DNA from: Owenia fusiformis
Taxonomy: Eukaryota; Annelida; Polychaeta; Sabellida; Oweniidae
Direction: 5' to 3'
Assembly: GCA_903813345.2 (NCBI GenBank)
Contig: CAIIXF020000009.1
Span: 20,609,759 to 20,673,758 of the forward strand
Length of the DNA: 64,000 nucleotides
Both the position numbers and the translations under genes were made by a program. Below, one piece after another: positions 18,728 through 63,884 of this stretch; positions within the stretch are counted from its first letter, which is position 1, and each line of letters begins with the position of its first letter. Below the pieces are notes generated by a model that did not search any database, was not told the origin of the DNA, and saw only the letters and a program-made list of their open reading frames with translations.

Positions 18728-19672
18728 GGGAAGGGATCCTTTGTATTATGATATTAACATCTCTGACATGAACACATTGTCGTCATATTCCAAGAGTTTT
18801 AAGGTTCACTCTGTCTTTTCATTTTCCTTACGGGAAGGTGTCCTTTTGTAATATGATATTAACATCTCTGACATGAACACATTGTCGTCATATTCCAAGA
18901 GTTTAAGGTCCACTCTGTCTTTTCATTTTCCTTACGGGAAGGTGTCATTTTGTAATATGATATTAACATCTCAGACATGAACACATTGTCGCCATACTCC
19001 AAGAGTTTTAAGGTCCACTCTCACTCTTTTCATTTTCCTTACGGGAAGGTGTCCTTTTGTAATATGATATTAACATCTCTGACATGAACACATTGTCGTC
19101 ATATTCCAAGAGTTTAAGGTCCACTCTGTCTTTTCATTTTCCTTACGGGAAGGTGTCATTTTGTAATATGATATTAACATCTCAGACATGAACACATTGT
19201 CGCCATACTCCAAGAGTTTTAAGGTCCACTCTCACTCTTTTCATTTTCCTTACGGGAAGGTGTCCTTTTGTAATATGATATTAACATCTCTGACATCAAC
19301 ACATTGTCGCCATATTCCAAGAGTTTTAAGGTCCACTCTGTCTTTTCATTTTCCTTACGGGAAGGTGTCCTTTTGTAATATGATATTAACATCTCTGACA
19401 TCAACACATTGTCGCCATATTCCAAGAGTTTTAAGGTCCACTCTGTCTTTTCATTTTCCTTACGGGAAGGTGTCCTTTTGTAATATGATATTAACATCTC
19501 AGACATGAACACATTGTCGCAATACTCCAAGAGTTTTAAGGTTCACTCTCTCTCTCTCTTTTCATTTTCCTTACGGGAAGGTGTCCTTTTGTAATATGAT
19601 ATTAACATCTCTGACATCAACACATTGTCGCCATATTCCAAGAGTTTTAAGGTTCACTCTGTCTTTTCATTT
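18728..19672 (+). repeat. ~107-113 bp satellite, about 9 copies
   Basis: Each unit contains CGGGAAGGTGTCCTTTTG, ATGATATTAACATCTCTGAC, ACACATTGTCGCCATATTCC and TTTTCATTTTCCTTACGGG. Copies differ by a few bases and by short CT insertions. Repeat-periodic open frames on both strands are not coding. Confidence 0.92.
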
Positions 19673-35845: not shown

Positions 35846-35962
35846 TCTATAATTAAGCTATTATGAACTAGATGTAGATGCAGGAAACATGTACAGCTTG
35901 TTATTTTATAACTATACATTTATTTCACTCTTGGCCATTTCTTATTTTAGATAAATCCAAAA

Positions 35963-38900
35963 ATGGCGACAAATTCAACGCACAAATGCTGCTGCTTCAA
36001 ACAATGCACTACAAAAAGTGAACTTTTAGATCCAGAAAATTCATCCAGAGTAGAAGTGAAGACAACTTTTCCTAAGTCTCTGATAAAAAGTAAATCATTA
36101 ATAGACTGGTCATCTAAAGGTGAAGCTAAATTCCATCTTGCTTGCTGGGAGCTTATTCAAAATGCATCAAAATCTAGGGGCAGAAAACAAAAGATCAGTT
36201 TAACAAATCAAGAAAAAGCAATGGTAAAGGAGGCTTCTGATACTGCAGAATTTCACGACTCTCATGATGTGATTAAGGAAAAAGCTGCCAAAGTTGCAGA
36301 GCTAATTAAGAAAGCGAAACATTGTGTGGTTTTTACTGGAGCTGGTATATCAACAAGTGCAGGTATAGGTGAGAAGCATTCATTTATTTATTTATTCTTT
36401 TATCCATGTTTTTGCAGTTTGTATTTAAACATTATTTGTCAGGAGCTAAAAAAAACTTGAAATATGAATATTTGAAGTGGGCGTTTTACAGAGAATTTAT
36501 TAAAAGACTTTATGAATTTTATGCTTTATAATGGCTCCATATATTTAAAACCTTCATGCATTCCTGTAACATTTTTAATATATGGTTAATTTAGTCTATT
36601 ACATCTTTCAATGAAGTAATATGTTTTATTTCATTCTACAGTAAAATGTGTGTGATCAAATAGCTTTGGTGTCTCAAAATAGTGTGAGGTGTTCATTCTA
36701 CAAAGGTTCATTTATTAGATTAATAAATTTGGAAGATGTTCCAGTTACAGAGGTGTTCCAGATTCTACTGAGAACATTATATGTTTCAGGAGACTACAGG
36801 GGTAAAAGTGGTAAATGGACTGAGATGGATAGACAGAACGACGAGCCAGAGCCTAAGAAACAATGCAAAGAGCCTGAAGATGAAGCAGGTACATTTTCCA
36901 GGTCATTTCAATATCAAGTTGAAAATTGTAACACTAATTAAATTGGAGTCAAAATATAATTTATATAAATGATGTTTTTTCATGGAAATCATAATTTTGA
37001 CCTGACTACTTATGTCCTCTCTTAGGCATCAGTCACTCAGATTCCGAGGATGGTGAGCTAGTACTTCCTGATGAAGATGGTGTTGATTATGAAGACTTGA
37101 GACCCACATACACACATGAAGCCCTCAAAAAGCTTGTGGACATGAATCTATTGAAATATGTCATCAGTCAAAATGGAGATGGCTTACATGGTTTATCAGG
37201 TTGGTTTATTCATGGGCTTTCAAGGCCTCTTGAAAGCCCATGGTTTATTTAACAGAATAATTATTTCGTTTCATAAAATTTCACTTTTTGTGCATATGGG
37301 TTCATCTGAACAACCTGAGCACCTAGTTTGGATGATATACTGAAACTTATCAAATAATATCAATATACATGTATTTCTAAAAGTTCGAAAAATCAAAAAG
37401 CAACCCCCTCATTTTGGATTAACTTTTTGGAATCTCATGAATTTTCTTGAGGAGCGCATGAAACACTGGTGTACTAACATAGCAACAATCCCTTTGTATT
37501 TAGAAGAAATAATTATTTTTATTTAGGTATCCTCTCGTGTAAAATCATCAAAAGATATTCAATTTTCTTAATTTTGAATTTGTGTCTTTGACATTTTTTG
37601 AGACATTCTGGGTTGCTTTCATAAAAATTGTGAATAACATATCTTATCATGGATGTTCTATTAGAAAGTTAAGAGGTCATGACCATATCTACTCACGTAT
37701 ATGGAATAATTTTGTTAATTATGATGAAATGACTTGCTTATTTCATAATTATTGACAAAGACAGATTTCCGAACTTGCGTGACTTTGAGTGATTTGGTGT
37801 GGGAAGATGCCTTTGTCTCACCATTGTGTCCCATATTGAACACTATCCACACAAGAATATTCATGCATATTCCATGAAAATGTTATATGAAAAATAGAGG
37901 GTTGCATTCAAGTTTGTGTCACCCTATATTACAGTTTATGATTTTTATAATTTCAGGGATTCCAAGAGAAAAACTAGCCGAGTTACATGGCAATGTCTTC
38001 ATAGAGAAATGTGAAAGTGCCAAACAGTCTATGAAAGAGATCATTACGTGTTAGATGACCATTGCAGCTTATACTATGAGGAACTAGAGGAGAATGGAGA
38101 AACTGACATTATAAAACCTAAACATGCAAAACAATGCTCACTGTGTCAGTTGAGCCATAGGACAGGCAGAAAATGCACCAAAAAGGTAAGTTCACAGTCA
38201 TTCTGTCATTACAGGGAAAAATGTACACTAAAGGATTTAAGCCAGGGCTTAATGGATTGTGGATGATTCCATCATGGACTTTCAATAGATTTTGTATCTG
38301 AGTCGTGTAGTTAAATTCTTTTCACACTTAGCAAAAGATTTTTTATGCTATCTGAAAAAGAATTAAATTCAACCAGAAACGTTTTTGCAAAGTCAATATG
38401 TTTACCTGGACCTACTTATCAGGACCTGCTTTAGTGGAATGTACATGTGACCACAAAAATGGGTTCCACTTTGGAGATGTTCCACTTATAGAAGTTCCTT
38501 TGAAATTAAATCAATTTGATCTGGGAACTTTGAAAAGTGTTCTACTTATGTAGGTGTTCCACTTCTTATCATTGAATTTATTTCCATGCATTTTAACAAT
38601 TTCAGGGCTGCAAAGGCTACCTAATGGACAGCATTATTAACTTCCGAGACAATCTTGATGATGCCATCTTAGATGGTGCCATTAACAATGCAGAGATGTG
38701 TGATGTTATGATCTCTCTTGGAAGCACCATGACTGTAACACCTGCCAATTCTCTAATAGATACTAGTCCAAAAATGATGAGCCTGATAATATGCAACAGG
38801 TAAAGTATATCGCTTCTCTGGGACCTAGATGCTAGAAGTAATTTCTACTTAAGCGTATATGATGCATAATCAGATTACTGTATTGCAAATGGTAGAAAAT

Positions 38901-41404: not shown

Positions 41405-41994
41405 ATGAACAGGTAGCACATAATGCAGCACATGATGAACAATATAGCACATAATGGGCATGTAGCACATAATGAACAATATAGCACATAATGGGCATGT
41501 AGCACATAATGAACAATATAGCACATAATGGGCATGTAGCACATAATGAACAATATAGCACATAATGGGCATGTAGCACATAATGAACAATATAGCACAT
41601 AATGGGCATGTAGCACATAATGAACAATATAGCACATAATGAGCATGCAGCACATGATGAACAATATAGCACATAATGGGCATGTAGCACATAATGAACA
41701 ATATAGCACATAATGGGCATGTAGCACATAATGAACAATATAGCACATAATGGGCATGTAGCACATAATGAACAATATAGCACATAATGAGCATGCAGCA
41801 CATGATGAACAATATAGCACATAATGGGCATGTAGCACATAATGAACAATATAGCACATAATGGGCATGTAGCACATGATGAACAATATAGCACATAATG
41901 GGCATGTAGCACATAATGAACAATATAGCACATAATGGGCATGTAGCACATAATGAACAATATAGCACATAATGGGCATGTAGCACATAATGAG
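41405..41994 (-). repeat. 37-bp tandem array, about 16 copies
   Basis: Unit: AGCACATAATGAACAATAT followed by AGCACATAATGGGCATGT. The unit is itself a diverged dimer of a CACATAATG half-unit. Occasional GCAGCACATGATG variants recur. Because 37 is not a multiple of three and no frame has a stop, three overlapping ~200-codon open frames of nearly identical sequence result on the minus strand; they are artefacts. Confidence 0.95.
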
Positions 41995-44680: not shown

Positions 44681-45530
44681 TTACATGTACGACATACCGG
44701 CTACAGAGTTGATACCATTCTCTCTTAGAGCATCAATGAGTTTAGGTATATTGGCATTCCTTCCTTCTAGATCTTTCCACCTGATGAGCATTTGGTATAC
44801 CTGCTCACGCAGATTTCGTTCATTAGAGTAATACACATCTTCTATTTCATCCTCATCAATATTTAATGACCTTGCAATGGATTTCCAATTTTTCATACAG
44901 TTTGAATTACGAGTGATGATTTTGAATGTGCGATCATCGAGCGCTAAAATAAAGAAATATAGGTATTAAATTAGATGCATAGAACTGATATTATTAACTT
45001 GGTTTTTTCCAGAGGTCTTTAATCATACTATCAGGCACACGAGGCTTAATTCAAATCAAAGACAACAGCAAAGAAAATGATTTGAATCATAGATGGATTA
45101 TAAGACTGGGAGGACAAAGAGAAATTTCAAGCCAGGAAGATGTCCCTCAATTTTTCAATTTATTTTTAAACAGTATCTCAAAACAAGTGAACATTATTAA
45201 CTTACCAGTCATAGGGTCTTTTTTCTTTTCATTCTCAGTATTCTTCTTAAACTGTGTCACGTCAGTGTTATCAAGCTTATCGGCCAACCAATCATATTTC
45301 ACTGAGAGGGCTAATCTGAAGCTGCTATATGCTTTTGGACCACATGTTGGGAGTAAATCACAAAGTGCAGAGGCCTGGTCCCGCCATGATGTTTTACCCA
45401 GAATATCCTGTTTCTGGGTGACTGTAATTATACTATCTGATAACAGTGTCTCAACAACATCTTCTGGTCTCAAATCGTCTGTTAATGACTCTCGATTTGC
45501 AGTCAGTCTGTATCGATCCTCACTTAGCAT
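44681..45530 (-). CDS. CRADD: CARD plus death-domain adaptor, CRADD/RAIDD-like
   Basis: Two coding exons: 45530-45206 (CARD) and 44943-44681 (death domain, TAA), joined in phase 1 by GTAAGT and TTTTAG; 195 residues, against 199 in human CRADD. The CARD, residues ~5-95, reads LRPEDVVETLLSDSIITV, ILGKTSWRDQASALCDLLPT and CGPKAYSSFRLAL, close to CRADD's LLLDILPSRGPKAF. The death domain, residues ~109-190, reads NWKSIARSLNIDEDEIEDV, REQVYQMLIRWKDLEG and IPKLIDALREN. CRADD bridges PIDD1 and caspase-2 in vertebrates by CARD and death-domain contacts; that role is inferred here only from architecture. The start at 45530 is the first ATG in the CARD frame. Invertebrates may hold several CARD-death adaptors, so one-to-one orthology is not certain. 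Confidence 0.85.
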
Positions 45531-48500
45531 GGTCTTGGATTTCAATACTGATTAATCATTCCACGGTGAATTGAAATCCTCGATAAACATTGGAACACAC
45601 AGGATTTAAATGTGTGCACACGGAAAAATATGTGCACTGAACACAACACTGTGGTAACCAGGATGAAGTTGGACTACATTTTTACCTGTAATGAATCAAA
45701 TAAATACAATAGATGAGAATAATCACCAGTTAGCTAGCTCATTTTGGTTCTTATTTATTTTTCGTTTTATCAAACATGATTGTTTGAATGGAAATCCCAA
45801 AAGTACACTTTCGGCCAAAAATAAATGAGAAGTTTTCTATCACAATTTTTTCAAATGAAGAAATTTTCGTTTTTGATTGAGAAAGATTCCATAACTTTTC
45901 AAGATGGCGGTTGGATTTAAAAGGGAATTCCCCATTTGACTGGCCCAGAAGTGGCTCGGAAGTACTAATAAATGGAGGAATTTGACGGTTGATATAAGTT
46001 AAATATTACACGCAAATATTGCGATCTTAAACGAAAATTTCTTTCTTCTGCCAATAAACCCTTACAATTTTGGATTCAACTACACGAAAAGAATGCTAAA
46101 ATACCAAGGAATCAATTGAAGTAGGTATCTAAAGTGTAAGGGACGTAGATAATTCTCCCAAGTTGTAATCGTACAGGCAAAAGATTGGGCTCGTTCCAGG
46201 ACAGTCCTGGCACGGGATAAATGACAGTTATTGCAATTGCAATATAATATAGCATTGTAACGGTAATACCAGGCTTTCACGATAACACTACCACGGTCAT
46301 GGCAGGATCCTTGTGCAACTTAAAAACACTTAATAACATTGTGACGGTTGTGCCAGGCATAAGTCTTGCAACAGATAGGGTCTCAGTTTACCATTGGTCG
46401 GTGTTTTGTAAGAAACATTTAGGGATAGAAATGATGTGGTGAATCTTAGCATTTCATTCATAACCTTAAGTATGTTAATACCCTTGTATTTGTGTGTATA
46501 TCACAGTCTATGTATTTCTTTATAGATTGTAAAATGAAAAACAAAGGAAAACATGGAAATAAAAAATACTATAGTTTCCAAAAGTGACTTACATTACGAA
46601 GTAACACAATAATCATGAGAATATGACACTGAACATTACCAGCTAGTTTGGAACTATACTTTAAGTATTTATTTAAATCTGAATTATTCATGGAAACATC
46701 AAAAAAGTGAAAATACCTGAATTTTTCAGAAAAATATTTATTAGTCCACCATTTTGTTGTCACGTGATTTCAACGTGAAAACTCGATAACACAGAGACGA
46801 GATTTCATTTTTCTGGAAAAGGTAAGTGGTGCTCAAAACACAGTTTATTCTCTTTCGTTTATTACCAGCTTTGTAATCGAAACGACTATTTAAAGTACAG
46901 TGTAAGAGATAAGACAATAAATATCGTACTGACATAAACAGCTAAAGTTTATCTCATACGAGCAGCAAGATATTTGGTCTTGAAGTGGAGGCATGAACAT
47001 TTTGAGTTGCCAAAAAATCACAGCAACTTTTCCAGGTGACCTGAATGCAAGTGGTCACGTAGACCTGGTACACTTTACTACCAATGATATATTATTACTT
47101 GCATACGTGGCTTCCTTGCTTTAGATACCATACCTCTCACAGAAGTTTTTGGAACTATCTTTTAGGAATACTTTCTTCCAAACAGGTAAGGAAACTTTAT
47201 CATCAACTTTTTGGCCCCACCCTCATTTTGCCATGGCAGGGACTGACTCACCTCATGAACTGTGACAAATACATTTATTTTGTGATATTCTTTGATTATG
47301 TAGACATTCAGATAAATTTTTCTTCAATCTTTTGAAAATTATAACATGTTTTGGTCTGGTTGGTTGGATTGGTCTCAGTCAAAATGTAGATCATTCAAAT
47401 TCAAGTAACATGTGTAGCCTATAGGCAGGGATCCCTCCTAAATTATACATTTGTAATTTCAAACAATAGTTATATCATACACTTTCAGACCTGTCTTTGA
47501 CAATTTGCAAGTTATAACTAATATTTATAACAGTAGTTCAAACGTGACACTCAATTGAATTGGGAATTTAGTGAATTTCAAAGCAAAACTTGGTTCATGC
47601 TCCTGTTCAGGTTTACTCACACATGTAGATGATTAAGGATATAAGGTTACTAATTCTTGGACATGGATATATGTCTCTACCTGTTCAACTGGTCTTAAAG
47701 TACGATCCATCCTTCACTCATAGTGACCTAGATTTGAACTAGTATATCTACTAGATTTAAAGAGATTCTAATACAGTAGATAGAAATGACTAAACAATTG
47801 CAGTTTCACTGTTTTCTGGGAAGAATCTGAAATACAAAATTGTTGACATATTTGTGAACCTAACCAGAAGTGTATTCTCTGATATTCGGTGTATTTTGTG
47901 ATAAATTTTATTAAAAAATCTGTGCTGGATTCAATTTTAAACGCCTTTTTATTATAATCTTCTAATGATCACTATGATTTCTATTATTTTGACTTCCCTG
48001 CTTGATGAAATGAGCCCCATCACTGTTCTTCCTACTCAATAGTTTAGTGAACCCTTATTGAGATATACATGAGATGAAAATTGTGCATTTTAAATACATT
48101 TTAATCCTAAATGTAAACATGGCTTTAAAAGGTCTAACAGCTGTCTTTGAATGGATTCTCATATAGAAATCAAATCATGAGAGAATGGTCTTGAAACCAG
48201 AAAACATTTCTTATAATTTTCTAGAACAAATGTGAGGGATGATTGCTTTTGTTCACTATGGAATTTATAGTTTAAATAATGATAAAATGTAATTCTAAAT
48301 TATTTTTTGGAGTGCAATCAGTAGATAATTGATTGAAGCATTCGAAATATAAAACCATATGAACATATGTGTGAAGTTTTGATGACATAAATTAATTGTA
48401 CTGGACTCTAACACAGTCAGTCAGATTACAATCTATTAGAAAATCTCAATTCAGTGTTCCATCTTTTTATTCTTCTAAATGTAGAAATTCTATTTTTCAG
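45531..48500. other. Intergenic and 5' flank between the CARD-death gene and P4HA
   Basis: The two genes diverge, so both promoters should lie here. A CACGTG E-box at ~46762 followed by AAAAG/GTAAGT at ~46819, and AACAG/GTAAG near 47184, are possible 5' UTR exon ends for P4HA, but nothing confirms them. No other gene was seen. Confidence 0.35.
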
Positions 48501-48614: not shown

Positions 48615-51600
48615 ATGTCGTCACAAAGGACAATACTACATAAAGTGTGTGTTGCACTGACACTGTTAATAGTGGGATTTATACATGTGGCGAGGAGTGA
48701 GATGTTTACAGCCCTTGCAGATGTAGAGAGAATCCTACATGTAGAGAAAGACATAGCCAATGATCTCAGAGAATATATTGCCAGCGAGGAGGCTAGGCTG
48801 GAAAAAATTAGAAAGTAAGTTTAGCATTTATATTTATGGGAATACTGTTAGTTCAGTTTGACTGATTGCACATAACAATTTTCGATGTTATTTGTTAATG
48901 AACAAGCAGAATTATATCAGATGAAACTTTAATTCACAGATATGAATGTTATGGCTATCTTAAAATAGCCACTGAGTTTGTTTATTGATTTAGGTACATA
49001 TCTTAGGTAATTCAACATTTAGTATTTATCTTATCAATGAACATATCACCATGTTGTATTATCATTGACAAACATACATGTTACATGTATGGCCTCACAT
49101 CACATTTTGGGATTTCCAAGTGATAGTCTCCAAGTGATTGCTGTAAAGTCAGCCATCTACTGAGCAGAACTACAGGATAAATAAACTTCATTATACTTTA
49201 TTTAGCAACCCCAATTTTAATGAAAATGATCAAATTGTCAAGTATGGTTTCATCAGCAGCTGGCAAGATGATTTTCTCCATTTGCTTTCACCTAAATTGC
49301 CTGGTATTTTTAGGAATTAAGTGGAAATTAGACTGTCTACTCATTTTGTCTGATCAATGTATTTCATTGTTTTGCCTGTTACCAGACATTCTAATGTTAT
49401 TCATGGTCATTGAAGGCAGTTTTGTAAAGTTTAGAAAAGTTTCTGGGTTAGGGAAATCTTATGAAGAACATTAAAATATTCCAAATTCTCAGATTTGAAT
49501 TTTGTAATCACGTACCAGACATTGAATGAAACTGTCAACACTTGGTAATAAATAGAGCTGTGTGGAGGATGCAACACTAATCAAGGAATACATAAATCAA
49601 AAGCCTCATATTATCAGAGACATGTGCTAGGTAAGGTATGCATGTATGGTCTCACGTTTATTCTCTTTTAAACCTCTAACAATCAATCATGATCCGTGAT
49701 GACAGCACATGGTGATATGTGTTAGATATTCTATTGATACATATAGCTGAGGAAGATTTTTCAGTAATTACATCACTTTTTACCCAGCTTTTATTATTTT
49801 GATAATAAATGTCTTAATCTATCTTACATGTATACACCAACTCAAAAACTGTTTTGGCTAATATACATATTTTTGTTCCTAAAAAACTATTTTGACTGCA
49901 TCAAAAATGACGTGGTCACTGTGGTTGTTATGGTTTGGAAACCACATTTGAACCATCTGCCCTGCATTAAAAAGTGTTCCATGAAAACCCCCATTGCTTT
50001 GTCAGCTTGTTTTTGGACTAGTAAGCGATTATCTTATACTAGAAACCCAAAGCCATCTTTCAAACTACATTGTGTGTAGTCTCCTTGAAGATATGTTGAA
50101 ATCTGATATTTAGGTAATAATTGCAGAGTAGCCTTGTGTTCTAGATCATGTTGCATGTTTTGTCTGTAAGGGAGGCATTGGGCCAGATAAGTGTATATTA
50201 AGCCATGTTTGATTGTTTTATATTTTTAAGAATAAAATGTTCATTCAAGAGAAATAATTATCTATATAAATAATATATTCACTATTATAAAATTTGAGTG
50301 GTACTAAATTAGACACATGTAATTGTATGATTTTATCTTGCATAAATTTATAATATTCAATCTTTCAATTTTTATTATCATATTACAGTACTTGAATAGA
50401 ACAAAGAGACAATTCAAAATATATTAACTAAATATTTCCTGTTGGAAGCATGTGGTTGATGTACGTGCAAAAAAGTGAGCAGTTTAGTCGTGATTTATTT
50501 TTTATAAGTCTAGTCCCTGTTTAGGTTAGCTTGACCTTACATATGTGCTTAGATGTTTGAAGAACAGCTTGCTGTCTACCTTTGAGTCTAAAATGACCAT
50601 GTTTGCAAAATATAACATACCACTGGAGCTTTAAAATGAGTTTGTTCAGTGCTTAGTACCAGTCTTATTCAAGTACATATTCTTTGATAAAACAATGGGA
50701 AAGTATAACAAGATCTTTTAAGTGGTATAATTTACAACTTTATAATACTCAGTTGTTTTGCATTGTTTATAAGAGTATTTCAACACTTGAAGATGATTTA
50801 TAGTTCTTTCAAGATGTTTTACTATTATCCTGATTCTACTAAATTGTCCACTTTATACCTCTTAAATTCTACTGTATGTATATTCACATAAAGATATGTG
50901 ATTCTCTTTACATTTCTTAACATTACATTTACACAGTTCAATGGCTCTTGCCTAATAGGAAATTATAATGATAGAGGCTTTATATCATATCATAGTTTCT
51001 GAAGACAAAGGTTTTTCACAAGTCCATTTTCATCTACCCTTGTGATTTAATCAGAAAGAAATTGACCAGTAAAAAGTATTTTTATGAATTCATCTTTCGA
51101 TGCAGTTCAGACATGATACTATGTAATAGTAATTGTATACTCAGTGCACAGTTGTTTATACCTCTTTCCCACCAGGAGTTTTTTGGTTCTCAACTTTGAA
51201 ATTCTAATTTTACCAATTATACAAAAGAAATACATTTACTTGTCAAATTATCCTGACATTTCATAGTTTTGCAAATTTCCTATTGGTTGGTAATTGGTTT
51301 CAACTGGACTAAATTTTGGTCTTTTACTTCACCATTTCCGGTGGTGACATATTGCTATAATCTCCAACTATTTTGTGAACGTTGTTTGGCAGTTGGTGTT
51401 TGGGGGGGTCAGCATCTGTAGCAAATGGCAGGTAGTGCCACTTTGCATGTAAATGCCTTGTTTGCATTGCATATGCTGGAGAGATCATCATATTATGCCT
51501 TTCTTATATTACAGAGTGGCCGATGACTATGAATCCCATAGTAATGAAGGTTTAAGTGATATTGTCCACCATGTGGGCCATCCTGTTAATGCATTCTTGC

Positions 51601-54600
51601 TTGTGAAACGATTCACACTTGACTGGAAGAATGTTGAGGACCTTCTCAAGAATGATACATCTCAAGGTATTGACTGCATACATATACAAAATTGTGGTTA
51701 TAGCCACACTTTTTCTTCACTACTATTTAAATTTTGAAATCGCTGACGCTTTGTGGTTCATTAGAATGAAGATTTCTATCTTGAATGAAATATATTTTAT
51801 GATCTGTTATATTTTCTAGATTTAACTATTTTACCTCTTAACAGAAAATACTTTTCGAACATGAAACTGCTGAATTACCACGTGTGTATTTGATAGTTAT
51901 GAGTTTCATTTCTCTACTTCAGAAATTATTAATCGTATAAATGGGCATCAAGAGAGATTCCCGGATACAGAGGATCTAGGTGGCGCCGCTACAGCATTGT
52001 TACGTCTTCAAGACACATATGAGATTCCTACTTCAAAGTTGGCACTTGGGGAGGTGGGGAAGAAGAAATCTAGTCCCATGACAGGTAAAATTATATCAAA
52101 TTGTTACTTTTTTATTTAATCAAAACTCGAGATCAAAATAACAGTTAACTTGAAATGCTTTTCATTCATTTATTTTCTCAGCAAAACATACTTTATGTCC
52201 AGTTTTATAAACGAATATACTGTAAGTTTGTATTTTGTTGAGTTTATTTTAAATTGTGTGTAAAGGTTAAACTTAAAAATTGTTTTCTTTTTGTTCTAAT
52301 GCATTTTTATACATATGTATTCATGGAAAAAGAACTGTATTGCCTTGTGAAATTCAGAAATACAGACATAGTAAAAATGGTCATTAAAGTTGTAATTAAC
52401 ATTTCATAAGTGCATTTTTAATATTGCCCCAAAGCTACTACAATTTTTACTAATTCTAACCTTTCATCAGTTACCACATATCATAAATAATATGTATGTT
52501 AATTGGTTTAAAAATAAAATATTACATTTATTAAACAATTTTGCAAAGAAAGTGTTTGTTTTGATCACTAACTGTCAAGAAGTGAACCTAACCGCATGTG
52601 AAGATGAACTAATATTTTACACATAGTCACCACTTGTAAAATGGAAATAAAATTTCAAAATATTTTATATTTCCATATCATTCCCTTGAAGTAGAAATAC
52701 ATGATCATAAAAATTAATTTGAATATAAATGTTATTAAATGAACTATAATTGGATGGTGTACATGACAAAAGGCACAGTTTAGTGATTAGATGTGTGTTC
52801 ATGACGACAAACAGCTTTATTCCAATCAATATATCTTTCTCATGAAAAAATATAAAATCATTGTTTATTGTTTCAATATTAAAGTTTTGATGAATTATAA
52901 AGTATTTTATGGATTCATGATTCATGTTTGTGTTGGATCCGCAAAAAGATTTTAGATATTTGATCAAATATGAAAACTATAGAAGAATTAAGACACAGAT
53001 TAATTATTGATGAAAATCAAAATATTTAGGGGGTGATCAATAAGTAATGGATGTATTTTACACAGAGATTTTTTTCGTATACACATTTTATGAAACAAAG
53101 ACTTTTAGGAAAAATGTATAACAGAGAATGATTTGAGCTTAAAATATAATGACAATTTTCAAAAGTTACCTTCTAATAATCTATCCTACGTTGCCTCTTA
53201 CATTTATTTGATTTAGAACTAACACTGCATGGTTTGTGTCATTCATTGATTGATACTTAGATTTACTAACCCTGCATGGTTTGTTTCAGCCAATGACTGT
53301 TTTGAACTAGGCAAATCAGCATACCTGAATGGTGACCATTACCACTGCATCTTATGGATGGACGAAGCTATAGATATCTATGAGAATGAGCGTAATAAAA
53401 CAGTTGATAAAGCAACTGTGCTTGATTATTTGTCATATTCACTTTATCTGGTAAGTGTGAATATTTATTTACACGAGAGCATGTTGTGTTGTCCCAGCAT
53501 GTAGAATGTGATGTGTGTGATTATGCTCCGCATGGATGAATGCCTGGCTTTTACCCCTATAACACCAAAGATAGAACCACCTCCTTCCATTTTGGACTAA
53601 CCCAACTGACTTTTGAGGGGTGTGAGGGTGGACTGATGAGATGTCGTCTGTAACTTTTAGCTGATGAATGCTTTGAGCTGGGGAGGTTTGCCTACAACAG
53701 AGAGGACTACTATCACACTATAATGTGGATGCAACAGGCACTTGAGATGTGGGAGGATGAAAGAAACAAAACTGTAGAGAAATGGTTAATCCTTGATTAC
53801 CTCTCTTATTCTCACTCCATGGTAAGGTTTGTTGTTGGCCTCCTAGATGGAAATGGTGGAGCTTGTTTTGAGAAGTGGTGGTCTCACTGGTCTATGTGGG
53901 AATGTGATCCTAAATGGTGATTAATCTATGCGACTATGTCACCTAAGTTGCGATGTGATTGATCTATGTGGTAATCTGACCTAAGTGGTGATGTGATTGA
54001 TCTGTGTGGTAATCTGACCTTAGTGGTGATGTGATTGTTGATCTATGTGGTAATCTGACCTAAGTGGTGATGTGATTGTTGATCTATGTGGTAATCTGAC
54101 CTAAGTGGTGATGTGATTGTTGATCTATGTGGTAATCTGACCTTAGTGGTGATGTGATTGTTGATCTATGTGGTAATCTGACCTAAGTGGTGATGTGATT
54201 GTTGATCTATGTGGTAATCTGACCTAAGTGGTGATGTGATTGTTGATCTATGTGGTAATCTGACCTAAGTGGTGATGTGATTGTTGATCTATGTGGTAAT
54301 CTGACCTAAGTGGTGATGTGATTGATCTGTGTGGTAATCTGACCTAAGTGGTGATGTGATTGTTGATCTATGTGGTAATCTGACCTAAGTGGTGATGTGA
54401 TTGATCTGTGTGGTAATCTGACCTAAGTGGTGATGTGATTGTTGATCTATGTGGTAATCTGACCTAAGTGGTGATGTGATTGATCTGTGTGGTAATCTGA
54501 CCTAAGTGGTGATGTGATTGTTGATCTATGTGGTAATCTGACCTAAGTGGTGATGTGATTGTTGATCTATGTGGTAATCTGACCTAAGTGGTGATGTGAT

Positions 54601-57600
54601 TGATCTGTGTGGTAATCTGACCTAAGTGGTGATGTGATTGTTGATCTATGTGGTAATCTGACCTAAGTGGTGATGTGATTGTTGATCTATGTGGTAATCT
54701 GACCTAAGTGGTGATGTGATTGTTGATCTATGTGGTAATCTGACCTAAGTGGTGATTTGATTCATCGTTTGGCTGTTGGCATCTATAACAAATGGCAGGT
54801 GGTGACATTTGCATGACTTTATCACATGCTCTCACATGTAGTTGTCATTTTCTGTTAAAAATTGTTTATAGTACCATATGTATGGCCGATATCATTGAAT
54901 ATATAAAAAACAAAATAAAAATCTCAGTGGTATTCAACACTATCTGGCCCCTAGTGAAATGTTTTTCTGTATTTTACTTGAATCATTGAATAACATGTGG
55001 TACATTAGTTGTTGCTGGTGGCAAGGTGACTTTGTGTAAATGATATGATAGCTTAGCGAGTGGGTGACAGATTGATTGTGAGATGACTTGTGATTATTTT
55101 ATTTGCCATAAAATATTTTGTGAAATGACATTGAAAATCATATCACATCAAAGATCTATTTTTAAGTGTAAAATTCAATATTGTATGTTATTTTATGTAG
55201 AATATAATCGGCTAGATTTAAAGATTTAATGTCAAAAATAATTCTTCTCAGATTGTTATTTTAAGGATAATTGTTAAATTGTTATTTTAAGGATTTCATA
55301 ATTTGACAATTCAATATTTATGTCTGTAAACTTCTCTGTGTGAATCTTCTTTCTGAATCCTCATTTTACACACAATTTTTTAATTCACACTGATCTGTAT
55401 AACTTGTAAAGGTGTTTTAATCAGTTATTTACATGGTTAGAATAGTGAATTGCACAGTTACTAACATAAAACAGAAACCATTAGGTTTATTACCTCACAG
55501 AATCTAAAACTGCTACCTTGTTATCTAAAACTGCTTCTTTGAGGAAATCATCAATATTTGAATTGTTGGTGTTTAACTATGATGTGGCCAGAAACTTGAG
55601 GCAGCCTAGCATCAATTCATTGGGCCCCTCATTCTATTTCCACCACACAATTGAGAGAATGTGGCATGGGTTCAAATATGGGCAAAAGTCATGAAGACAA
55701 AACTGTCCTAATACCCATATTGTGAAAGATAATACAGTCAACTCAAACTTGCCAAAATAAATCAAAACACATTTCCTCAAAGTAGTTGCTTTCATAAATT
55801 TAATTGTAGAATCGCGTTGTTTACATGTGTTCACTCAACTTTCAGCAAGGCAATGTGCGTCACGCACTCGTTTTGACCAATGAGCTTATCTCGCTTGGTA
55901 AGTTACCTTTAGAAGCTAACCCTCACCTTACATCCTTACATAACATATCAGCCAAGCAGTCACTATAAATACACATGGTATATTGCAATTAAAAGAAAAA
56001 ATATCTGCCTAGGATATAAAGTTATTGTCTTTGATAAGATCCCTTAAATGTACCATCTCTATTGCACTTTTTACAAAGATTGATGTATTATATTAAGTTT
56101 TAAATATTGATTGCAAAAAGTGTGTTTTGAAAATTGATGCGCCAGATAAGGGGTCTTATTAGGACAGTTCGTTTCAAGTCATAAATTTTGTGTGTCTGCA
56201 ATGATATGTAATGGAAGAACTGCAAAAACTTAGTTTTGACATTATCAAGAATGTATCACAAATTAAAGCTATATTTGTGATATCATTTTTGTTGATGTCT
56301 CTTATTGTATACCATCTTCTGAATATCTGTTCGTCTGAGTATCTTTTCTGTTTTCCATGAAATAACCCTCTTACCCCACATGACCATGATAACCCATTGT
56401 AGATAGTCTTTCATAATACACAGATATACTTGTAATCATATACAATATATTGATGGCCCTAGATTCTTTAGAAAGGATTTAATCGCATCATTGAATTGAC
56501 GGAAAAATATTCTGTATAAGAAAGATATATGTTTCAACAAAGGGACTATTCAAAATAATATGTACCAAATATTTTCAAAACTTTCCTACACTTTGGGGCT
56601 GTTTCAAAACTCAATCAACTGTTAGATAATTTTTGGGAGAAATGAGTATGTTTTAATAACAAATTGTGAAGTTGCCTCATGGTTTCTCAAGTAGTGCATT
56701 CATGTAGAGGAGGGGAAACGATTAACCAGTATGGTTTCTGGGTTTTGGTTAAAATTGGGATGGTAGATGTCCGTGCTATAATTGTAAGACTGATTGACTT
56801 TCCAATGTAATTCATTCCTTCATATAAAGGCCTCCTTCCCCGGTTGATTAGAAAATGATGAACATAGTCAATATTTGTACTGTGTAAGAGTATATCTGTG
56901 TAAAATAGCATTACACCATCTAACCACTTCACCAAGTTTTCTCATCTTCCGATCTCCTATTGTGCCCACTAAAGCGCCCACCAATAACTACCCCTGATGA
57001 AGATGGTGTATTCAATATGTACATGTATAGTTAATATTTCAGCAAGGTAATGTGAGACCAGCACTGAAGTTGACCAATGAATGGTTACTACTTGGTAAGG
57101 CATACAATCTGAAGTTTATATCATCCAGTGGTGATTTGGTAGATCAAATGGGGAAAGTCAATATATCTATCAGGGGTTATTCAATACATCAGCAAAGGAT
57201 CATTCAGTTTGTCAACCTGGGGTCATTCCAAAAATTCAGTATATCAACAAAAGATCATTCAGTGTTTCAAACCAAGAGAATTCTAACAAAACTGTATGTA
57301 TGTTTTAAATAATTGTCTACCAATGAGCTCTGTTCATTTCCCATGGAAAGAGGAAGAATATATTTTTAAGTGTTTTTTTCCATATAGTTTTACAAATGAT
57401 GACAGCTAATTCTAAAATATTAGCTGGTCCTATAGATTTGAGATTAGAATACAAATTGAAATCTGGAAGATTATAAACACAAGACACAAAAACAAGGAAC
57501 TACCAACCAATAAGACCAACAGTCAAATCCAGTTTTTTATAATACTTATTTTATGACTTAAAGTCCCCGATAAATCGGGCTACGTATACCGCCGTGTTTA

Positions 57601-60600
57601 CATTAGGGGATTAGAAGAGTTTATTCTTTATTTTGGTATGCAAGCTACGTATATCAATATTAGGCCTTCATTCATGTACTCGTGTGCATGTAATCAGCAT
57701 GCCCTTCAATATTATGTAAACCAGGCTATTCAAGTACTGTATAATGTACACTATTTATGTGTGTACTACATACAATACATTTCCCTGGGAAACAAAACAC
57801 AAATACTTTTTATATGTTCAAAATGAGCCATTTGATTGATGCAAACACTAAATAGCTTCATAAATAACATCTACAAAGTATATCTAATAGTAATTTTCAA
57901 TTTCAATGGTGAAACTTCCCTGGTTACGATTATATGGGAAATCATCACGAGACGAAGATCGTTCGCCTTCCTGGCTTACCTCTGAATCGTGTACCCGGCA
58001 ATCTCTTTATATAGTTTAGCGAGAGCGGTGCGCCTGCGCAGTTTTAAACTTTGGCGCACACTTTAAAGAGATGCTCATGCAATAAGTAGGGTCACTGACC
58101 CTTAAAATGACTTAAAATAACTGCATTTATAAAAAAAATACAATAATTTAACAAGTATCCCTTTAAAAAGGACCAATATGACACTAGTTTGTCAATGTAT
58201 AAGAACAAGAATGGTTATGATTTTGCAATATGTTGTAAATTTTGGAATTTTCTTAACATCTCAAAATTCTAAAATGGTAAACATTTGCACATTTGAAGTT
58301 TAGTGCTCTGATTCATCTCTTTAAGTCATCCACATTTGTAGTTGGCATTAAGACAAAAACATTTAAAATGTGATTTCAGTCAGTATCTATTTTCTATTTT
58401 AGTGCCAGATCACGAGAGAGCATCCAACAATAAGAAATACTATGAGAGTCTTATAGAGAAAGAAGAAAGTGAACCTGGTAAGCGTGGAGACTCTGGGGAG
58501 AAAGTGAAAAATGAACGGCCGACTGATGAATACAAACGTTCAACAGAGTTTATTGTGTATGAGAAACTGTGCAGAGGAGAGGATACACATGTAAGTCTTT
58601 TTCTGAAATTACAGAATTTAAAAATACAAAGCAATAAAAGTATAATCTGTCAGAAATATATGTTGAAATTGTGTTTGTTCTGCTACTAATGCCTGTTGGT
58701 ACCACACAGGCTCGTGATATTTAATTACATCTAAATTTTATTTCATAAGTGCGTTTCAATATTATTTTTAGGAAATCCCATCACCACACACTCTTGCATG
58801 CAGTTACAATGACAATAACAGTCCATTTCTGAAGCTACAGCCAATCAAACAAGAGGTTGTGTTCCACGATCCTAGAATCGTAATCCTTCATGACGTTATG
58901 TCTGACAGTGAAATTGAGGTTATAAAAACTTTAGCAGCTCCCAGGGTAAGTATTGTGCGAAAATTATAATGTTGATAGCTTGTTTGATGATTAATTTGAA
59001 CAACAAAACAATTAAATGCCAATTTAGAAAATAATTGTAGACAATGAGAGAAATTGATATTTTTTGAATTAGAACAATCAATTATTTTTTCATTCAAATT
59101 CAATTAATACTAATGTCATACAAATGCACATCCCAAATGCTTCATGTAAAAAGCATGGCTTATATTAGACAAATTGTTAGAAATATTTGAAGGCAGTGAT
59201 GAATCCATAATGATTTGTAGTTTTGTTTGAAATAAATCTGTGATCCTCTACTGATTCGGATGGGCATCTTTCACGCTGAACTGATTTTTGGCAGCAGTTT
59301 GTGATCAACCAATCAACAAATTAGTGGCAAGTTTTTGGTACTAAACACATTAGGTTGTTACATCTTGATATTTGAACTGTCACAGCTGGGTTACAGAATG
59401 GCTGACAGCTGAGAGTTACAGAATGGCTCACAGCTGAGAGTAACAGAATGGCTCATGGCTGAGTAACAGAATGGCTGACAGCTGAGAGTTACAGAATGGC
59501 TCACAGTTGAGAGTTACAGAATGGCTCACAGCTGAGAGTTACAGAATGGCTCACAGCTGAGAGTTACAGAATGGCTCACAGCTGAGAGTTACAGGTTGGC
59601 TCACAGCTGAGAGTTACAGAATGACTCACGGCTGAGAGTTACAGAATGACTCACGGCTGAGAGTTACAGAATGACTCACAATTGAGAGTTACAGAATGGC
59701 TCACAGCTGAGAGTTACAGAATGACTCACGGCTGAGAGTTACAGAATGACTCACAATTGAGAGTTACAGAATGACTCACGGCTGAGAGTTACAGAATGAC
59801 TCACAATTGAGAGTTACAGAATGGCTCATGGCTGAGAGTTACAGAATGACTCATGGCTGAGTTACAGAATGACTCACAATTGAGAGTTACAGAATGGCTC
59901 ATGGCTGAGTTACAGAATGGCTCACAGCTGACAGTTACAGAATGGCTCATGGCTGAGAGTTATTTGTTCATGAATGTTTCTCATAACTGATCTGGTAGAT
60001 TTACTTTATGATATGATTCGATTTTAACCAATCTCACATTAAAAAGGAATTAGAAATGCAATTAATGCTTAATAGGTTCTTGATCAAAATTAAAACATCC
60101 TTTTGTGAGTCTGGTGGTATTTGTCCCATTTGAAGATGAGAAATGAGATAAAGTCTAGCATTGCACGATGTAATGCATGCTTATATAGAGATCAATTTCC
60201 CAGATTGTAATTAAACCATATAACGTATTGATTTGAACTGAAGAACTGACTTTAGTGAGCTATTACTAATATCCTGCTGAAAATATTGCAGATACTAGTC
60301 TGATTCTAATTGAAATTTAATATGAAGCAGCATGGCACGGATGTTTTCATTGTCTCTACCAAAATGAGCAAAATAGTTTTCCTTATATAATACTTAAAAT
60401 TCAGACTCATTATTGGTTTATTTTCAATGGTTGCTAACTTTTATATCATGTTGTATAACTTATTTTAAGTTAAACTTATTTGCCATTATTAAATTATTAT
60501 TTCCACTTAGTTTTTTGATAACCTTAATAAAAGGGATGGTGTACAAATGTTGAGAATTGTGGAAAAGACAAAATTAAATTAAATTAAACTCCTGTTGGAA

Positions 60601-63600
60601 TGCTATTTACTTGAATCACACTTTAAAATCAATGAAATCTCCATTTACTTCATACTCCTAACAAAATTAACTTTTTCCCACAACTGTTCACCATTGGACA
60701 CCATCCTTAACATGGTGTTATTCCACCAATAGCTTAGTCTTGTAATGTTATGATTTCCAACTCCCTTTTTATATGATATAATTTGGAGGTAAAATTTATG
60801 ATTTTTAAAGATTTTGTTTTATATATTTAGATTGTTTTGTATTATCATTTTGTCTAACATACATTATACAAAGATATTCTATAGAAATGATGAAGTTAGT
60901 AGGCCAAGAATCCTTTAAACCAATTCTTTGCGACAGAATTGAAGAAGCATGCTTTGTGACATCATTGATGAGACATGCTTTGTGACATCATTGATGAAAC
61001 ATGCTTTGTGACATCAGTGACAAGAAGCATACAACCTTGACATTAATAAAGGGCCATACCAAGTCATATGAATTCTTTCTATGTATGTTACACATGTCAA
61101 TATTTTGGGATAAATGCCCTTGTTGATCATGAAATGATGACCATCCTCATTATTACAAGATTGACAGGGTAGAGACGTAAGCTTGTATTATTTCATTTGA
61201 CCCATATGCATGTATTAAAGCACTACCCATGTATTTGGCTTCAAGTCTCGTACTAACCAGCACACTAATAGTGAGCATACTAAAGCTTGTAGTGTTTTCT
61301 TGATAACAGTTTTATTTTGAACGCATCGTGTAGGGAAATTCCTCGCTACTAAACTCTTCTGATTAATATATTGAACACATGTTTTGAGACCAATCAAGTT
61401 GATTTTATTTTTGACAATTAAAATGATGAAAAAAAGGTGCTGGGTTTCATTGAAATCAAGATATTTACAATGTATGTACATGGATTGATTTTAATGAATG
61501 TCCCTATATGTACCAACATTGAAATATGTAAATGATTTTTATTGACATTGATTTGCTACCAAGATGTTCATTTATTCTTGATCTTATTTACTAACATTCA
61601 ATGTATCTTTCTCTGCATTACTTTACAGCTTAATAGAGCCACTGTCCAAAATGCCAAAACAGGACAGCTGGAGACTGCCCAATATAGAATCAGTAAGAGG
61701 TATGAAGTGTTCACTTCTATGCTTATGCTGTGGATACTTATGGCTTATTACTACTCCATTTTGTTATTATATGGATACAGTAACCAACTTTGTAGAGTCA
61801 GTCTTGTGACTGAGAAAAATGACTGCGGATGTTCTTTGTAGACACCTATGGGCAGCCTATATTGACTTCCTTAGTTTTGGTTGATATTTGAAGGGGCTGG
61901 GCAATGTTCTTCTTTTTTGGTTACTGTTTAAACTGAATGGAGTTGAATGCCATAAGGTAGTTGTTGCTGACTGTTTATAAATGAGGCATGGTCCAAATTG
62001 TGTTTACAGCTTCAGCGTGCAACAGCGCGTAATATTGTAACTGGAAAATTCGAGCCAGCTCATTATAGAATAAGCAAAAGGTAAGGTGAGATTTCTACAG
62101 CCTGTTGCATAAGTTTGGAAACCCTCTATTCCAATAGATGTCGTACTGATTCAATATGGTGGTGATTTGAAAATGAGGCTATCAGTGACATCTATGTTTT
62201 CATTACCACTCTGCTGTAGATGTGGTCATTTTGGACAATATGGTTCAAAACCCATATGTGACACATAAGATGCTAGCTTTATTACAATCATAAACAATAT
62301 TTGACAAAGATAGTCTACTTGTTTTTGTAATGGGCACTGTGTCTGGACAGGGGATCCCCCAGGATTTATACAACAGTGGGTGATAATGGTTTTCGCTGTA
62401 CCCCCGGAGGATCCCCATTTAATGTTGTAAAGGTATGGTATAATTCCTTGAGTGGTGATGATGAAATAGACCTGGATTTTGGCAGAGCTTGATAAGAAAT
62501 TAGTATATTTTACTTACGTGTATCTCTCTTATGTACTTTTTCTCCCTTTTACTATAATGTATCAATGGCATGCTAGCCATGGGTCACAAACATTTCAAAT
62601 ACATGTACATCAATTTTTCACTTTTGGTCCTTATTATAAGGACTGAGAAATTGAATTAAGGAATAAAATGACATATTTGACCATTGTTTTGGAAAGCTTT
62701 TTAAGCATTGACAGAAAATTTACTATATTGGCTAGCATGCTTTAAAAATGTGGTTCTCTGGTTCTTTCATGACACACTATATGTAAATGCAGCCTCTAGT
62801 CTTAGCTAATAGCACACTGTAGCTCATATAATATGTGTATAATATATTCTCACATTTAACACACCACAAGCTTCATCTACAGTGGTATACATCCCCCTCC
62901 CCTACAATACAATTCCCTTAGAATGAAGTTACCTATAAAATTCTCTTAGAATGAAGTTACCTATAAAATTCTCTGTTTTCGTTTCAAAACATACTGCAAT
63001 ATTTCACTCTTTGGGATATTTAGAGATATCTGTGAGGTAAAGTCAAAATTTTGTAGCTTAACCTCCCTATTAACTCATGAGCCACCTTGATTAGTGTTCT
63101 ACAAATATGGATCACTGTTTGAGATTTTTTCAGTGTGCTAAAGAGTGATTTTGTAATATGTCTTGTAATATCTTGCATTGTGTTTTTCTATTTTGGTTGA
63201 TTTCACCCAGTCATTCTCTATACAGTATACAGTAAAACCTGTTAAGAACACCTCTTGTTGTGTAAGTGGAATACCTCTCATTAGTGGAACACTTCAGAGT
63301 CCCATGACTATTTCATTTACTGAAGAATGTATAGTTGACTTTTGTAAGTGGAACAACTCTCTAAGGGAACACTTCAGAGTCCCATGACCAGTTGACTCAG
63401 TGAAGAATGTATAGTGCACCTCTTCAAGTAGAACACCTCTCCAGTTGAACACATTTTAGAGGAACGAAATGTGGTTTACTTACACAGGTTTTACTGTAGT
63501 AGTTGCCCAGAAACTCTTTTTTTATTACCATGTAGATGGTGCTACTCAAGACTGGGTAGTGCTGGTCCAATTTCAGTTCTCACAGTTACATCTCGATCTT

Positions 63601-63884
63601 GTTCAATCAAATCCTAAATCTATACTTTAAAGAAACCAGGGATTTTTCTATAAATTGAGTATAAAACAATGTTCATGATGTTTTGAGCATCTAGATTTTA
63701 GCATTAGGATTCGATTTAACAAAATAGAGTGAATAGAATAACCTCTATTAATGTTAGGATTTGTGAAACATAGTTGCATGTCATGCATGTTTTTGTAGCT
63801 GGCACGATCAACTGTATTTGACCCTAAAAAGAAAAACACACAAGGAGCATCAGCCAATGTGCAAAGCTATAGAACTAGTAAAGG
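48615..63884 (+). CDS. P4HA: Prolyl 4-hydroxylase alpha subunit with three duplicated exon positions; 3' end outside window
   Basis: P4HA hydroxylates X-Pro-Gly prolines of collagen-like proteins in the ER lumen as a tetramer with PDI. Exons: 48615-48814, 51515-51666, 51923-52084, 53290-53450 or 53661-53821, 55846-55897 or 57043-57094, 58403-58590, 58772-58945, then 61629-61699, 62010-62080 or 63799-63884. Exon 1 encodes a signal peptide (VALTLLIVGFIHVA) and EMFTALADVERILHVEKD, the family N-terminus. The next exons give the dimerisation region, then the TPR-like peptide-binding domain (ANDCFELGKSAY, TVLDYLSYS, QGNVRHALVLTNEL), the linker YEKLCRGED and HDVMSDSEIEVIKTLAAPR before the catalytic domain. 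One path gives ~387 codons, against ~534 residues in vertebrates; the HxD...H iron site and 2-oxoglutarate lysine lie beyond the edge. An acceptor at 48499-48500 suggests an upstream 5' UTR exon. Confidence 0.93.
51326..51460 (+). mobile_element. Short copy 3 of the GTGGTGACA-ended element
   Basis: ACTTCACCATTTCCGGTGGTG then GACATATTGCTATAATCTCC at the left, and GGCAGGTAGTGCCACTTTGC then ATGTAAATGCCTT at the right, match copies 1 and 2. It ends 54 bp before P4HA exon 2 and supplies no exon itself. Confidence 0.65.
53290..53450 (+). CDS. P4HA: P4HA peptide-binding exon, copy 4a
   Basis: 161 nt; enters in phase 1 and leaves in phase 0 (GTAAGT). It encodes ANDCFELGKSAYLNGDHYH through LDYLSYSLYL. 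It aligns residue for residue with copy 4b. Confidence 0.92.
53661..53821 (+). CDS. P4HA: P4HA peptide-binding exon, copy 4b
   Basis: 161 nt with the same phases as 4a, 210 nt downstream of it. It encodes ADECFELGRFAYNREDYYH through LDYLSYSHSM. DYYHTIMWMQQAL is closer to the vertebrate DYYHTELWMEQAL than 4a is. Joining 4a to 4b would shift the frame, so they should be mutually exclusive. Confidence 0.92.
53890..54765 (+). repeat. ~38/41-bp tandem array in the P4HA intron after exon 4b
   Basis: About 21 units of GGTGATGTGATTGTTGATCT followed by ATGTGGTAATCTGACCTAAGT. A 38-bp form lacking one GTT (GTGATTGATCTGTGTGG) is interspersed. It runs directly into the right end of the GTGGTGACA-type element (54766-54830). 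Confidence 0.93.
54766..54830 (+). mobile_element. Right end of the GTGGTGACA-type element (copy 4)
   Basis: GTTTGGCTGTTGGCATCTAT then AACAAATGGCAGGTGGTGAC and ATTTGCATGA match the right ends at 13797 and 51460. The left end is not visible, so the upstream 38/41-bp array may be the interior of this copy. Confidence 0.55.
55846..55897 (+). CDS. P4HA: P4HA peptide-binding exon, copy 5a
   Basis: 52 nt, phase 0 in and phase 1 out, encoding QGNVRHALVLTNELISL. Acceptor TTTCAG and donor GTAAGT. Confidence 0.88.
57043..57094 (+). CDS. P4HA: P4HA peptide-binding exon, copy 5b
   Basis: 52 nt with the same phases as 5a, encoding QGNVRPALKLTNEWLLL. Both copies match the vertebrate QGDLDKALLLTKKLLEL segment. 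A series join of 5a and 5b would shift the frame. Confidence 0.88.
57550..58110. other. GC-richer intron segment, possibly an unclassified insertion
   Basis: CCCGATAAATCGGGCTACGT, ACGAAGATCGTTCGCC and GAGAGCGGTGCGCCTGCGCA stand out against the AT-rich intron. No ends, target duplication or coding frame were recognised. Confidence 0.25.
59385..59955 (+). repeat. 25-bp tandem array, about 22 copies, in a P4HA intron
   Basis: Unit AGAGTTACAGAATGGCTCAC plus AGCTG. Subtypes GGCTCACAGCTG, GACTCACGGCTG and GACTCACAATTG are interleaved in a partly regular order, so there is some higher-order structure. Confidence 0.93.
60946..61020 (+). repeat. ~28-bp repeat, 3 copies
   Basis: Three consecutive copies of CATGCTTTGTGACATCATTG followed by ATGA-type spacers. 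Confidence 0.8.
61629..61699 (+). CDS. P4HA: P4HA catalytic-entry exon, copy 8a
   Basis: 71 nt, phase 0 in, phase 2 out. It encodes LNRATVQNAKTGQLETAQYR then ISK, matching vertebrate LARATVRDPKTG...YRVSK. Acceptor TTTACAG, donor GTATGA (weakest of the three). Confidence 0.9.
62010..62080 (+). CDS. P4HA: P4HA catalytic-entry exon, copy 8b
   Basis: 71 nt with the same phases as 8a, encoding LQRATARNIVTGKFEPAHYR then ISK. Acceptor TTTACAG, donor GTAAGG. It is 310 nt downstream of 8a. Confidence 0.9.
63230..63496. mobile_element. MITE with pogo/Tigger-like ends and TA target duplication
   Basis: CAGTAAAACCTGT at 63230-63242 and its exact complement ACAGGTTTTACTG at 63484-63496 are flanked on both sides by TA. 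The interior has 2.5 copies of a ~100-bp unit with GGAACACTTCAGAGTCCCAT and GAAGAATGTATAGT. It sits between alternative exons 8b and 8c. Confidence 0.85.
63799..63884 (+). CDS. P4HA: P4HA catalytic-entry exon, copy 8c (longer)
   Basis: 86 nt with the same phases as 8a and 8b, encoding LARSTVFDPKKKNTQGASAN then VQSYRTSKG. It is five codons longer in the loop between the conserved DPK and YR/SK parts. Its LAR and DPK are closest to vertebrate LARATVRDPKTG. Acceptor TTGTAG, donor GTAAAT. Further copies may lie beyond the window. Confidence 0.85.

Follow-up and report, generated by a model that had tools for sequence, protein, structure and literature searches.

In vertebrates, the genes for the alpha subunit of collagen prolyl 4-hydroxylase (C-P4H) are said to carry pairs of alternative exons, exons 9 and 10 in P4HA1 (reportedly Helaakoski, 1994) and exons 12a and 12b in P4HA2 (reportedly Nokelainen, 2001), and P4HA1 is not known to have any within its peptide-substrate-binding (PSB) domain. 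Here, we describe a P4HA gene on the plus strand at the right end of a 64,000-nucleotide stretch of contig CAIIXF020000009.1 from the annelid Owenia fusiformis (hereafter the window), in which three substrate-binding elements each appear to be coded by alternative homologous exons, one copy being used per transcript, a reading to which we assign a probability of roughly three in four.

The nearest likeness is between exon position 8 of the Owenia gene and the reported P4HA1 pair, both being homologous alternative exons for the hairpin loop at the active site (two forms of the segment occur among frog proteins of different species), but Owenia has three copies and the third, 8c, is longer. The reported P4HA2 pair follows the same logic, but at the other substrate loop, bII-bIII. 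A more general parallel is insect Dscam1, in which several mutually exclusive clusters (exons 4, 6, 9 and 17) multiply the isoforms of one gene (extract of PMC8042237), but the copies in Owenia P4HA are far fewer and no docking/selector pairing was found among them. In the human enzymes, splice variants change the hairpin loop of C-P4H-I and the bII-bIII loop of C-P4H-II, which are the two substrate-binding loops according to an extract of PMC9676403.

Gene identity and tandem exon sets

The window holds the first eight exon positions of the gene (Table 1), the rest of the catalytic domain lying beyond base 64000. The best protein match is the public Owenia fusiformis P4HA protein (P0001, 611 residues), of which residues 1-458 were rebuilt letter for letter from the window exons by script. 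Pfam recognizes P4Ha_N (E 1.1e-36 in both) and TPR_P4H, the PSB domain (E 6.8e-35 and 8.2e-34), in the two partial (386-aa) isoforms scanned, and because the top PDB sequence matches are human P4HA1 structures that include the PSB domain, its fold is clear as far as sequence matching to solved structures can make it. The C-terminal 153 residues of the public protein show, by eye, a 2-oxoglutarate dioxygenase domain with His-x-Asp and a distal His, which we take to be the catalytic-domain motif of the C-P4H alpha subunit.

Comparisons with other animals draw on 167 proteins, the 90% cluster representatives from the best 120 of 1071 and the best 120 of 2201 matches. All statements of breadth cover these proteins, with genomic DNA from Owenia alone; organism names are those given by the source, and for many sequences the label annelid means that they group with Lamellibrachia, Helobdella and Capitella. 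For 4b and 5b, a region-limited protein search gave 25 candidates and 15 matches, too few for breadth; the best 120 of 2201 matches are used in its place.

Positions 4, 5 and 8 each hold tandem homologous exons, and all seven copies lie between AG and GT. The phases from entry to exit are 1 to 0 in set 4, 0 to 1 in set 5 and 0 to 2 in set 8, and every one of the 12 combinations that take one copy per set is open through exon 8, where the window ends. By tblastn against the window, 4a and 4b are 59% identical over 51 aa (E 4e-20), 5a and 5b 72% over 18 aa (E 1.5e-4), and 8a and 8b 62.5% over 24 aa (E 2.5e-6), identities that were reached by 0 of 20000 residue shuffles for each pair. In the same tblastn search of the window 8c had no match to 8a or 8b at E<1, and its homology to exon 8 rests on a profile of its own type, made of 18 'RS-V' exon-8 segments including Owenia 8c itself, which it matches at E 4e-11. 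Six-frame profile scans of the window recovered two exon-4, two exon-5 and 2+1 exon-8 copies above noise, and neither a further copy of exon 4, 5 or 8 nor a bII-bIII exon rose above noise in them.

In the three comparable pairs (4a/4b, 5a/5b and 8a/8b), identity at the third codon position is 0.28-0.47, far below the 0.70-0.83 at positions 1 and 2, a pattern which indicates that both members have long been kept as protein under protein constraint. This divergence also bears on the possibility that each set contains one duplicate that is out of use and decaying. The absence of 4b and 8a from the public Owenia model could be cited for it; none of the seven copies has a stop, splice-site or frame defect, however, and the 4b and 8c types are present in other phyla. 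We consider such decay very improbable. An earlier account of the locus made from the letters alone (the sequence-only reading) had named the gene P4HA, had proposed three tandem homologous sets (161/161, 52/52 and 71/71/86 nt) combining in a 2 x 2 x 3 scheme, and had pointed to stops within a copy as one of the observations that would tell against it. The Pfam domains and the 458 rebuilt residues bear out the identity of the gene, the sizes, GT-AG sites, phases and homology of the sets agree with that account, all 12 combinations are open as far as the window reaches, and there is no stop in any copy.

Table 1. Exons and related segments of the Owenia fusiformis P4HA gene in the window
Feature	Position	Strand	Content	Remarks
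Exon 1	48615..48814	+	Start codon, N-terminal region	
Exon 2	51515..51666	+	N-terminal dimerisation domain	
Exon 3	51923..52084	+	N-terminal domain, phase 1 at end	
Exon 4a	53290..53450	+	PSB domain, Tyr199 (P5 proline pocket) kept	161 nt, in public model
Exon 4b	53661..53821	+	PSB domain, Ser for Tyr199	161 nt, not in public model
Exon 5a	55846..55897	+	PSB helix H10, Leu214 type	52 nt
Exon 5b	57043..57094	+	PSB helix H10, Trp214 (annelid) type, second AG 4 nt inside	52 nt
Exon 6	58403..58590	+	Single copy, groove residues Arg223/Asn227/Tyr230/Tyr231/Ser233 and linker	
Exon 7	58772..58945	+	Catalytic domain start	
Exon 8a	61629..61699	+	Active-site hairpin loop, standard type	71 nt, not in public model
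Exon 8b	62010..62080	+	Active-site hairpin loop, standard type	71 nt
In-frame segment	62351..62432	+	8b-to-8c link in public gene model	82 nt
Exon 8c	63799..63884	+	Longer hairpin loop, 'RS-V ... YRTSK' type	86 nt

Effects of the exon sets on the peptide path

The human PSB-I groove is formed mainly by helices H7, H9 and H11, with a P1 pocket made by Tyr230 and Tyr233 and a P5 pocket made by Tyr196, Tyr199, Asn227, Tyr230 and Phe231 (extract of PMC12433258). Aligned to the human groove residues, Owenia exon 4 holds Tyr158, Asp192, Tyr193, Tyr196 and residue 199. The two exon-4 copies differ at many places, but at only one of the ten groove residues given in that extract, namely residue 199, which is Tyr in 4a and Ser in 4b; the P8 pocket residues Tyr158, Asp192, Tyr193 and Tyr196 are retained in both. 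By alignment, the part exchanged through set 4 is the greater share of the PSB domain upstream of helix H10. With 4b, proline may be held less well in the P5 pocket, the chain remaining anchored at P8; this would relax the demand for proline at P5 and shift which collagen stretches are gripped, and a 4b enzyme may accept stretches with fewer prolines, or release its products faster.

Exon 5 we assign to helix H10, which does not line the groove. It holds 0 of the 10 groove residues, a count that sits poorly with a direct part for this set in substrate binding; residue 214 is Leu in 5a and Trp in 5b. Exon 8 codes for the hairpin loop over the active site, with a homologous segment in frog and Owenia proteins, the loop being placed after the account of the human enzymes in PMC9676403, and set 8 swaps the loop that closes over the substrate there. 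Since groove residue 199 lies in exon 4 and the hairpin loop in exon 8, it is sets 4 and 8 that, on alignment, change the path of the substrate; set 5 changes a helix next to that path.

The homologous hairpin-loop segment agrees with the earlier matching of position 8 to the vertebrate exon pair, to which 8c adds a third type that is also present in Lingula (X5), Lamellibrachia, Helobdella and further annelid-clade proteins. The bII-bIII exon lies beyond the window. The public Owenia protein has a single form of this loop; it is a further variable site in the protein models of Mytilus trossulus, Biomphalaria, Physella and Lingula, as it is in human C-P4H-II. In P0034 (Lineus), P0061 (Amblyomma), P0072 (Rhipicephalus) and P0066 two bII-bIII loop segments stand in series, which suggests alternative bII-bIII exons in nemerteans and ticks too.

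Exon 4 types across animals

Exon-4 segments, 172 in total, were extracted from 162 of the 167 proteins; the five without one (Haliotis asinina X2, Plakobranchus, Potamilus, Dreissena and one more) are left out of the counts for residue 199, Haliotis asinina X2 being read separately in the isoform comparison. Residue 199 is Tyr or Phe in 141 segments and non-aromatic in 31. In the segments of named proteins the residue is aromatic in 41/42 from arthropods, the exception being Topomyia, and in 6/6 from vertebrates, while the other 30 non-aromatic segments come from molluscs, Lingula, nemerteans and the annelid clade. These 30 lophotrochozoan segments keep the neighbouring residues almost without exception (Asp192 in 30/30, Tyr193 in 29/30, Tyr or Phe at 196 in 30/30).

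Ten proteins have two exon-4 segments. Four are insect models with residue 199 aromatic in both segments, which we read as two whole genes fused. The other six are lophotrochozoan models in which both segments are full (Tegillarca, Lingula, Pinctada, Candidula, Bulinus and Biomphalaria), and all have an aromatic residue in the first copy and a non-aromatic one in the second, as in Owenia. The same order is seen by eye in further two-copy models, from Aplysia and two of Nucella, which the segment rule cut short and which are not counted. Nine protein pairs were compared as isoforms, those of Dermacentor, Babylonia and Capitella being uninformative, and between the NCBI isoforms X1 and X2 every difference lies inside exon 4, both in Mytilus galloprovincialis (541 columns) and in Haliotis asinina (538 columns). 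Together with Physella X2/X3, these pairs resemble set 4 of Owenia in setting an aromatic against a non-aromatic residue 199; unlike Owenia, the mollusc NCBI isoform proteins show no second exon 5, a comparison that draws on isoform labels only.

The phylogenetic analysis of exon 4 on which we rely was made with IQ-TREE on 40 hand-picked segments (38 of the 172 plus Owenia 4a and 4b), chosen from species with both copies and from outgroups, the two nemertean segments being left out, over 52 columns and with residues 199-200 removed. Of the 16 non-aromatic segments, 14 (molluscs, Lingula and Owenia 4b) cluster together on a branch supported at 88/81 and without a star, in a tree in which 24 of 37 inner branches are open and the bootstrap was unsettled. 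A single clade for all 16 was not rejected by the approximately unbiased (AU) test (p 0.44), and the pattern is most simply read as a single duplication of exon 4 early among the lophotrochozoans, of which 52 columns are no proof. Several results pull the other way: P0008 and P0043, both annelid-clade and non-aromatic, stand outside the 4b group; a clade of Owenia 4a and 4b, as an origin of the pair within Owenia alone would give, is disfavoured, not rejected (AU p 0.068); and in a FastTree analysis of all exon-4 segments more of the 4b types, from Lingula, Tegillarca, Babylonia, Tubulanus, Lineus and the annelid clade, are scattered with weak support.

Our search of the literature (titles and abstract openings, with few subscription journals) found no paper that tells of PSB-domain exons being used alternatively in P4HA, in keeping with the remark in the sequence-only reading that it knew of no description of the two extra PSB sets, but set 4 is already present, unremarked, among the NCBI isoforms of bivalves and gastropods. 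The byssus and shell proteins that it had offered as a setting belong to molluscs, and do not suit an annelid worm. A mollusc origin of the DNA was likewise rejected, the protein matching that of Owenia fusiformis.

Exon 5 types and the coupling of sets 4 and 5

Within the proteins compared, Owenia alone showed a second copy of exon 5. Trp214, the 5b type, occurs in 21 of the 161 proteins whose exon 5 could be read, and all 21 belong to a single clade of 34 proteins that holds Lamellibrachia, Helobdella and Capitella; Owenia itself falls outside this clade and beside nemerteans, with weak support (0.64). As the two exon-4 types are spread over the lophotrochozoans and a second exon 5 was met in Owenia alone among these proteins, the two sets probably arose by separate duplications, in keeping with the earlier proposal.

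Sets 4 and 5 lie next to each other and encode parts of a single domain, which would also fit a choice that is real but coupled, 4a going with 5a and 4b with 5b to give two PSB forms, not four. Yet all four combinations of the types at residues 199 and 214 occur in the annelid clade (18, 8, 4 and 3 of the 33 of 34 proteins that could be scored). Being spread across species, these combinations speak for the compatibility of the types, not for their independence within one gene, and we regard coupling as unlikely without thinking it far-fetched.

Exclusivity and the public gene model

The sequence-only reading held that inclusion of two copies of a set, or of none, would break the frame. This stands for 4a+4b, for 8a+8b and for the omission of exon 4 alone or of exon 5 alone, all of which lose the frame and meet stops, while 8a+8c and 8b+8c shift the frame with no stop inside 8c, so that any stop would fall beyond the window. 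It leaks at three points. Exon 5b has a second AG 4 bases inside (CAG/CAAG), and 5a followed by the 5b so shortened (5b') is in frame; 8b can be linked to 8c in frame by way of the 82 nt at 62351-62432; and the joint skip of exons 4 and 5 is in frame as well, at the cost of most of the PSB domain.

Three features of the public Owenia model weigh against the use of one copy per transcript: it takes the +4-nt acceptor of 5b and so reads 5a and 5b in series, it joins 8b to 8c in frame through 62351-62432, and it contains neither 4b nor 8a. Taken at face value, copies would be spliced in series, lengthening both the PSB domain (5a + 5b') and the hairpin region (8b + 62351-62432 + 8c), exactly as P0001 reads; for six other lophotrochozoans, too, there are models that hold two full exon-4 segments one after the other. 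Because one of these, that of Tegillarca, is almost without filler, a single residue separating the copies with no sign of artefact, we have given splicing in series slightly more weight and the use of one copy per set slightly less. On the other hand, in Owenia neither 4a+4b nor 8a+8b keeps the frame, each of the NCBI isoforms of Mytilus galloprovincialis and Haliotis asinina has a single exon-4 copy, and the models of Lingula, Pinctada and Biomphalaria carry odd filler between the copies, as gene prediction would give. Splicing in series strikes us as improbable; the 62351-62432 segment is probably a prediction artefact, and the public Owenia model would be an automatic prediction in which homologous exons were placed in series.

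The in-frame skip raises the further possibility of a whole-domain switch, in which transcripts without exons 4 and 5 would give an enzyme lacking most of the PSB domain. The end of exon 3 and the beginning of exon 6 are both in phase 1, and the 3-6 join is open through exon 8a. Against this, none of the 167 proteins looks so (0/167), a weak count given that searches favour full-length relatives, and an exon-4 match is present in 130/130 of the first proteins and the segment in 34/37 of the others, the remaining 3 having TPR_P4H. We consider such a switch very improbable.

With one copy per set used in Owenia, the choice would most likely be made by ordinary splicing regulation, and most wrong joins would be removed by frame shift and decay. 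No active mechanism of exclusion was found, since in none of nine intron pairs did the best docking/selector duplex fall below the lowest of 8 shuffles, a weak negative that covers up to 600 nt per intron among the Owenia introns within the window and that counts against exclusive choice. Two other mechanisms were rejected: steric exclusion by a too-short intron, the 210-nt intron between 4a and 4b not being unusually short beside the 256-nt intron between exons 2 and 3, and minor-spliceosome incompatibility, all sites being AG...GT with acceptors that look ordinary by eye.

Two introns of the gene contain minisatellites. One of 41 bp, in about 20 copies (53941-54762), lies in the 4b-5a intron and starts about 120 nt past exon 4b. 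The other, of 25 bp in about 24 copies (59380-59962), lies in the intron upstream of exon 8a; the word TTACAG occurs in it 21 times, similar to the acceptors of 8a and 8b but without a pyrimidine tract.

Implications for P4HA diversity

The finding is real, and it is a variation on the known theme of exon switching in P4HA. It takes the alternative splicing of this gene beyond the two loops at the active site and into the docking groove. Its most valuable point, absent from the earlier account, is the exon pair that puts Tyr199 in or leaves it out, recurring across lophotrochozoans. We tentatively propose, at somewhat short of even odds, an ancient lophotrochozoan splice switch that adds or removes the P5 Tyr199 with the P8 anchor intact, within a peptide path that is splice-modular as a whole, so that one gene serves several collagen classes. 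If true, the modular path would run from the docking groove to the active site by way of exon 4, helix H10 (in Owenia), the hairpin loop and the bII-bIII loop, and the collagens served could be, for example, cuticle, fibrillar, tube or secreted ones.

The role of the docking domain in the choice of chain has so far been studied with human isoenzymes that differ at many residues. Of the ten groove residues in the published account, the native exon pairs differ at one, and their arrangement is shared by an annelid, a brachiopod and molluscs; the role of the P5 pocket is therefore directly testable with them. The locus also illustrates how automatic annotation can mangle such genes, the Owenia model having dropped 4b and 8a and fused 5a with 5b and 8b with 8c.

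Other features of the window

Elsewhere in the window, a 36-bp tandem repeat in about 58 copies occupies 10486-12586, where long open frames on both strands merely follow the repeat, and other tandem arrays lie at 7518-8448, 18727-19673 and 41423-41993. An open frame at 35951-36457 (+) contains VVFTGAGIS, which we take to be a sirtuin-like motif, the piece alone having no Pfam match. Two similar C-type lectin domain pieces, at 21312-21737 (-) and 28134-28499 (-), are perhaps a tandem gene pair. An open frame at 22611-23024 (-) codes for a VHL beta domain (Pfam E 2.3e-6), and one at 45150-45551 (-), upstream of P4HA and on the opposite strand, for a CARD domain (Pfam E 3.7e-11).

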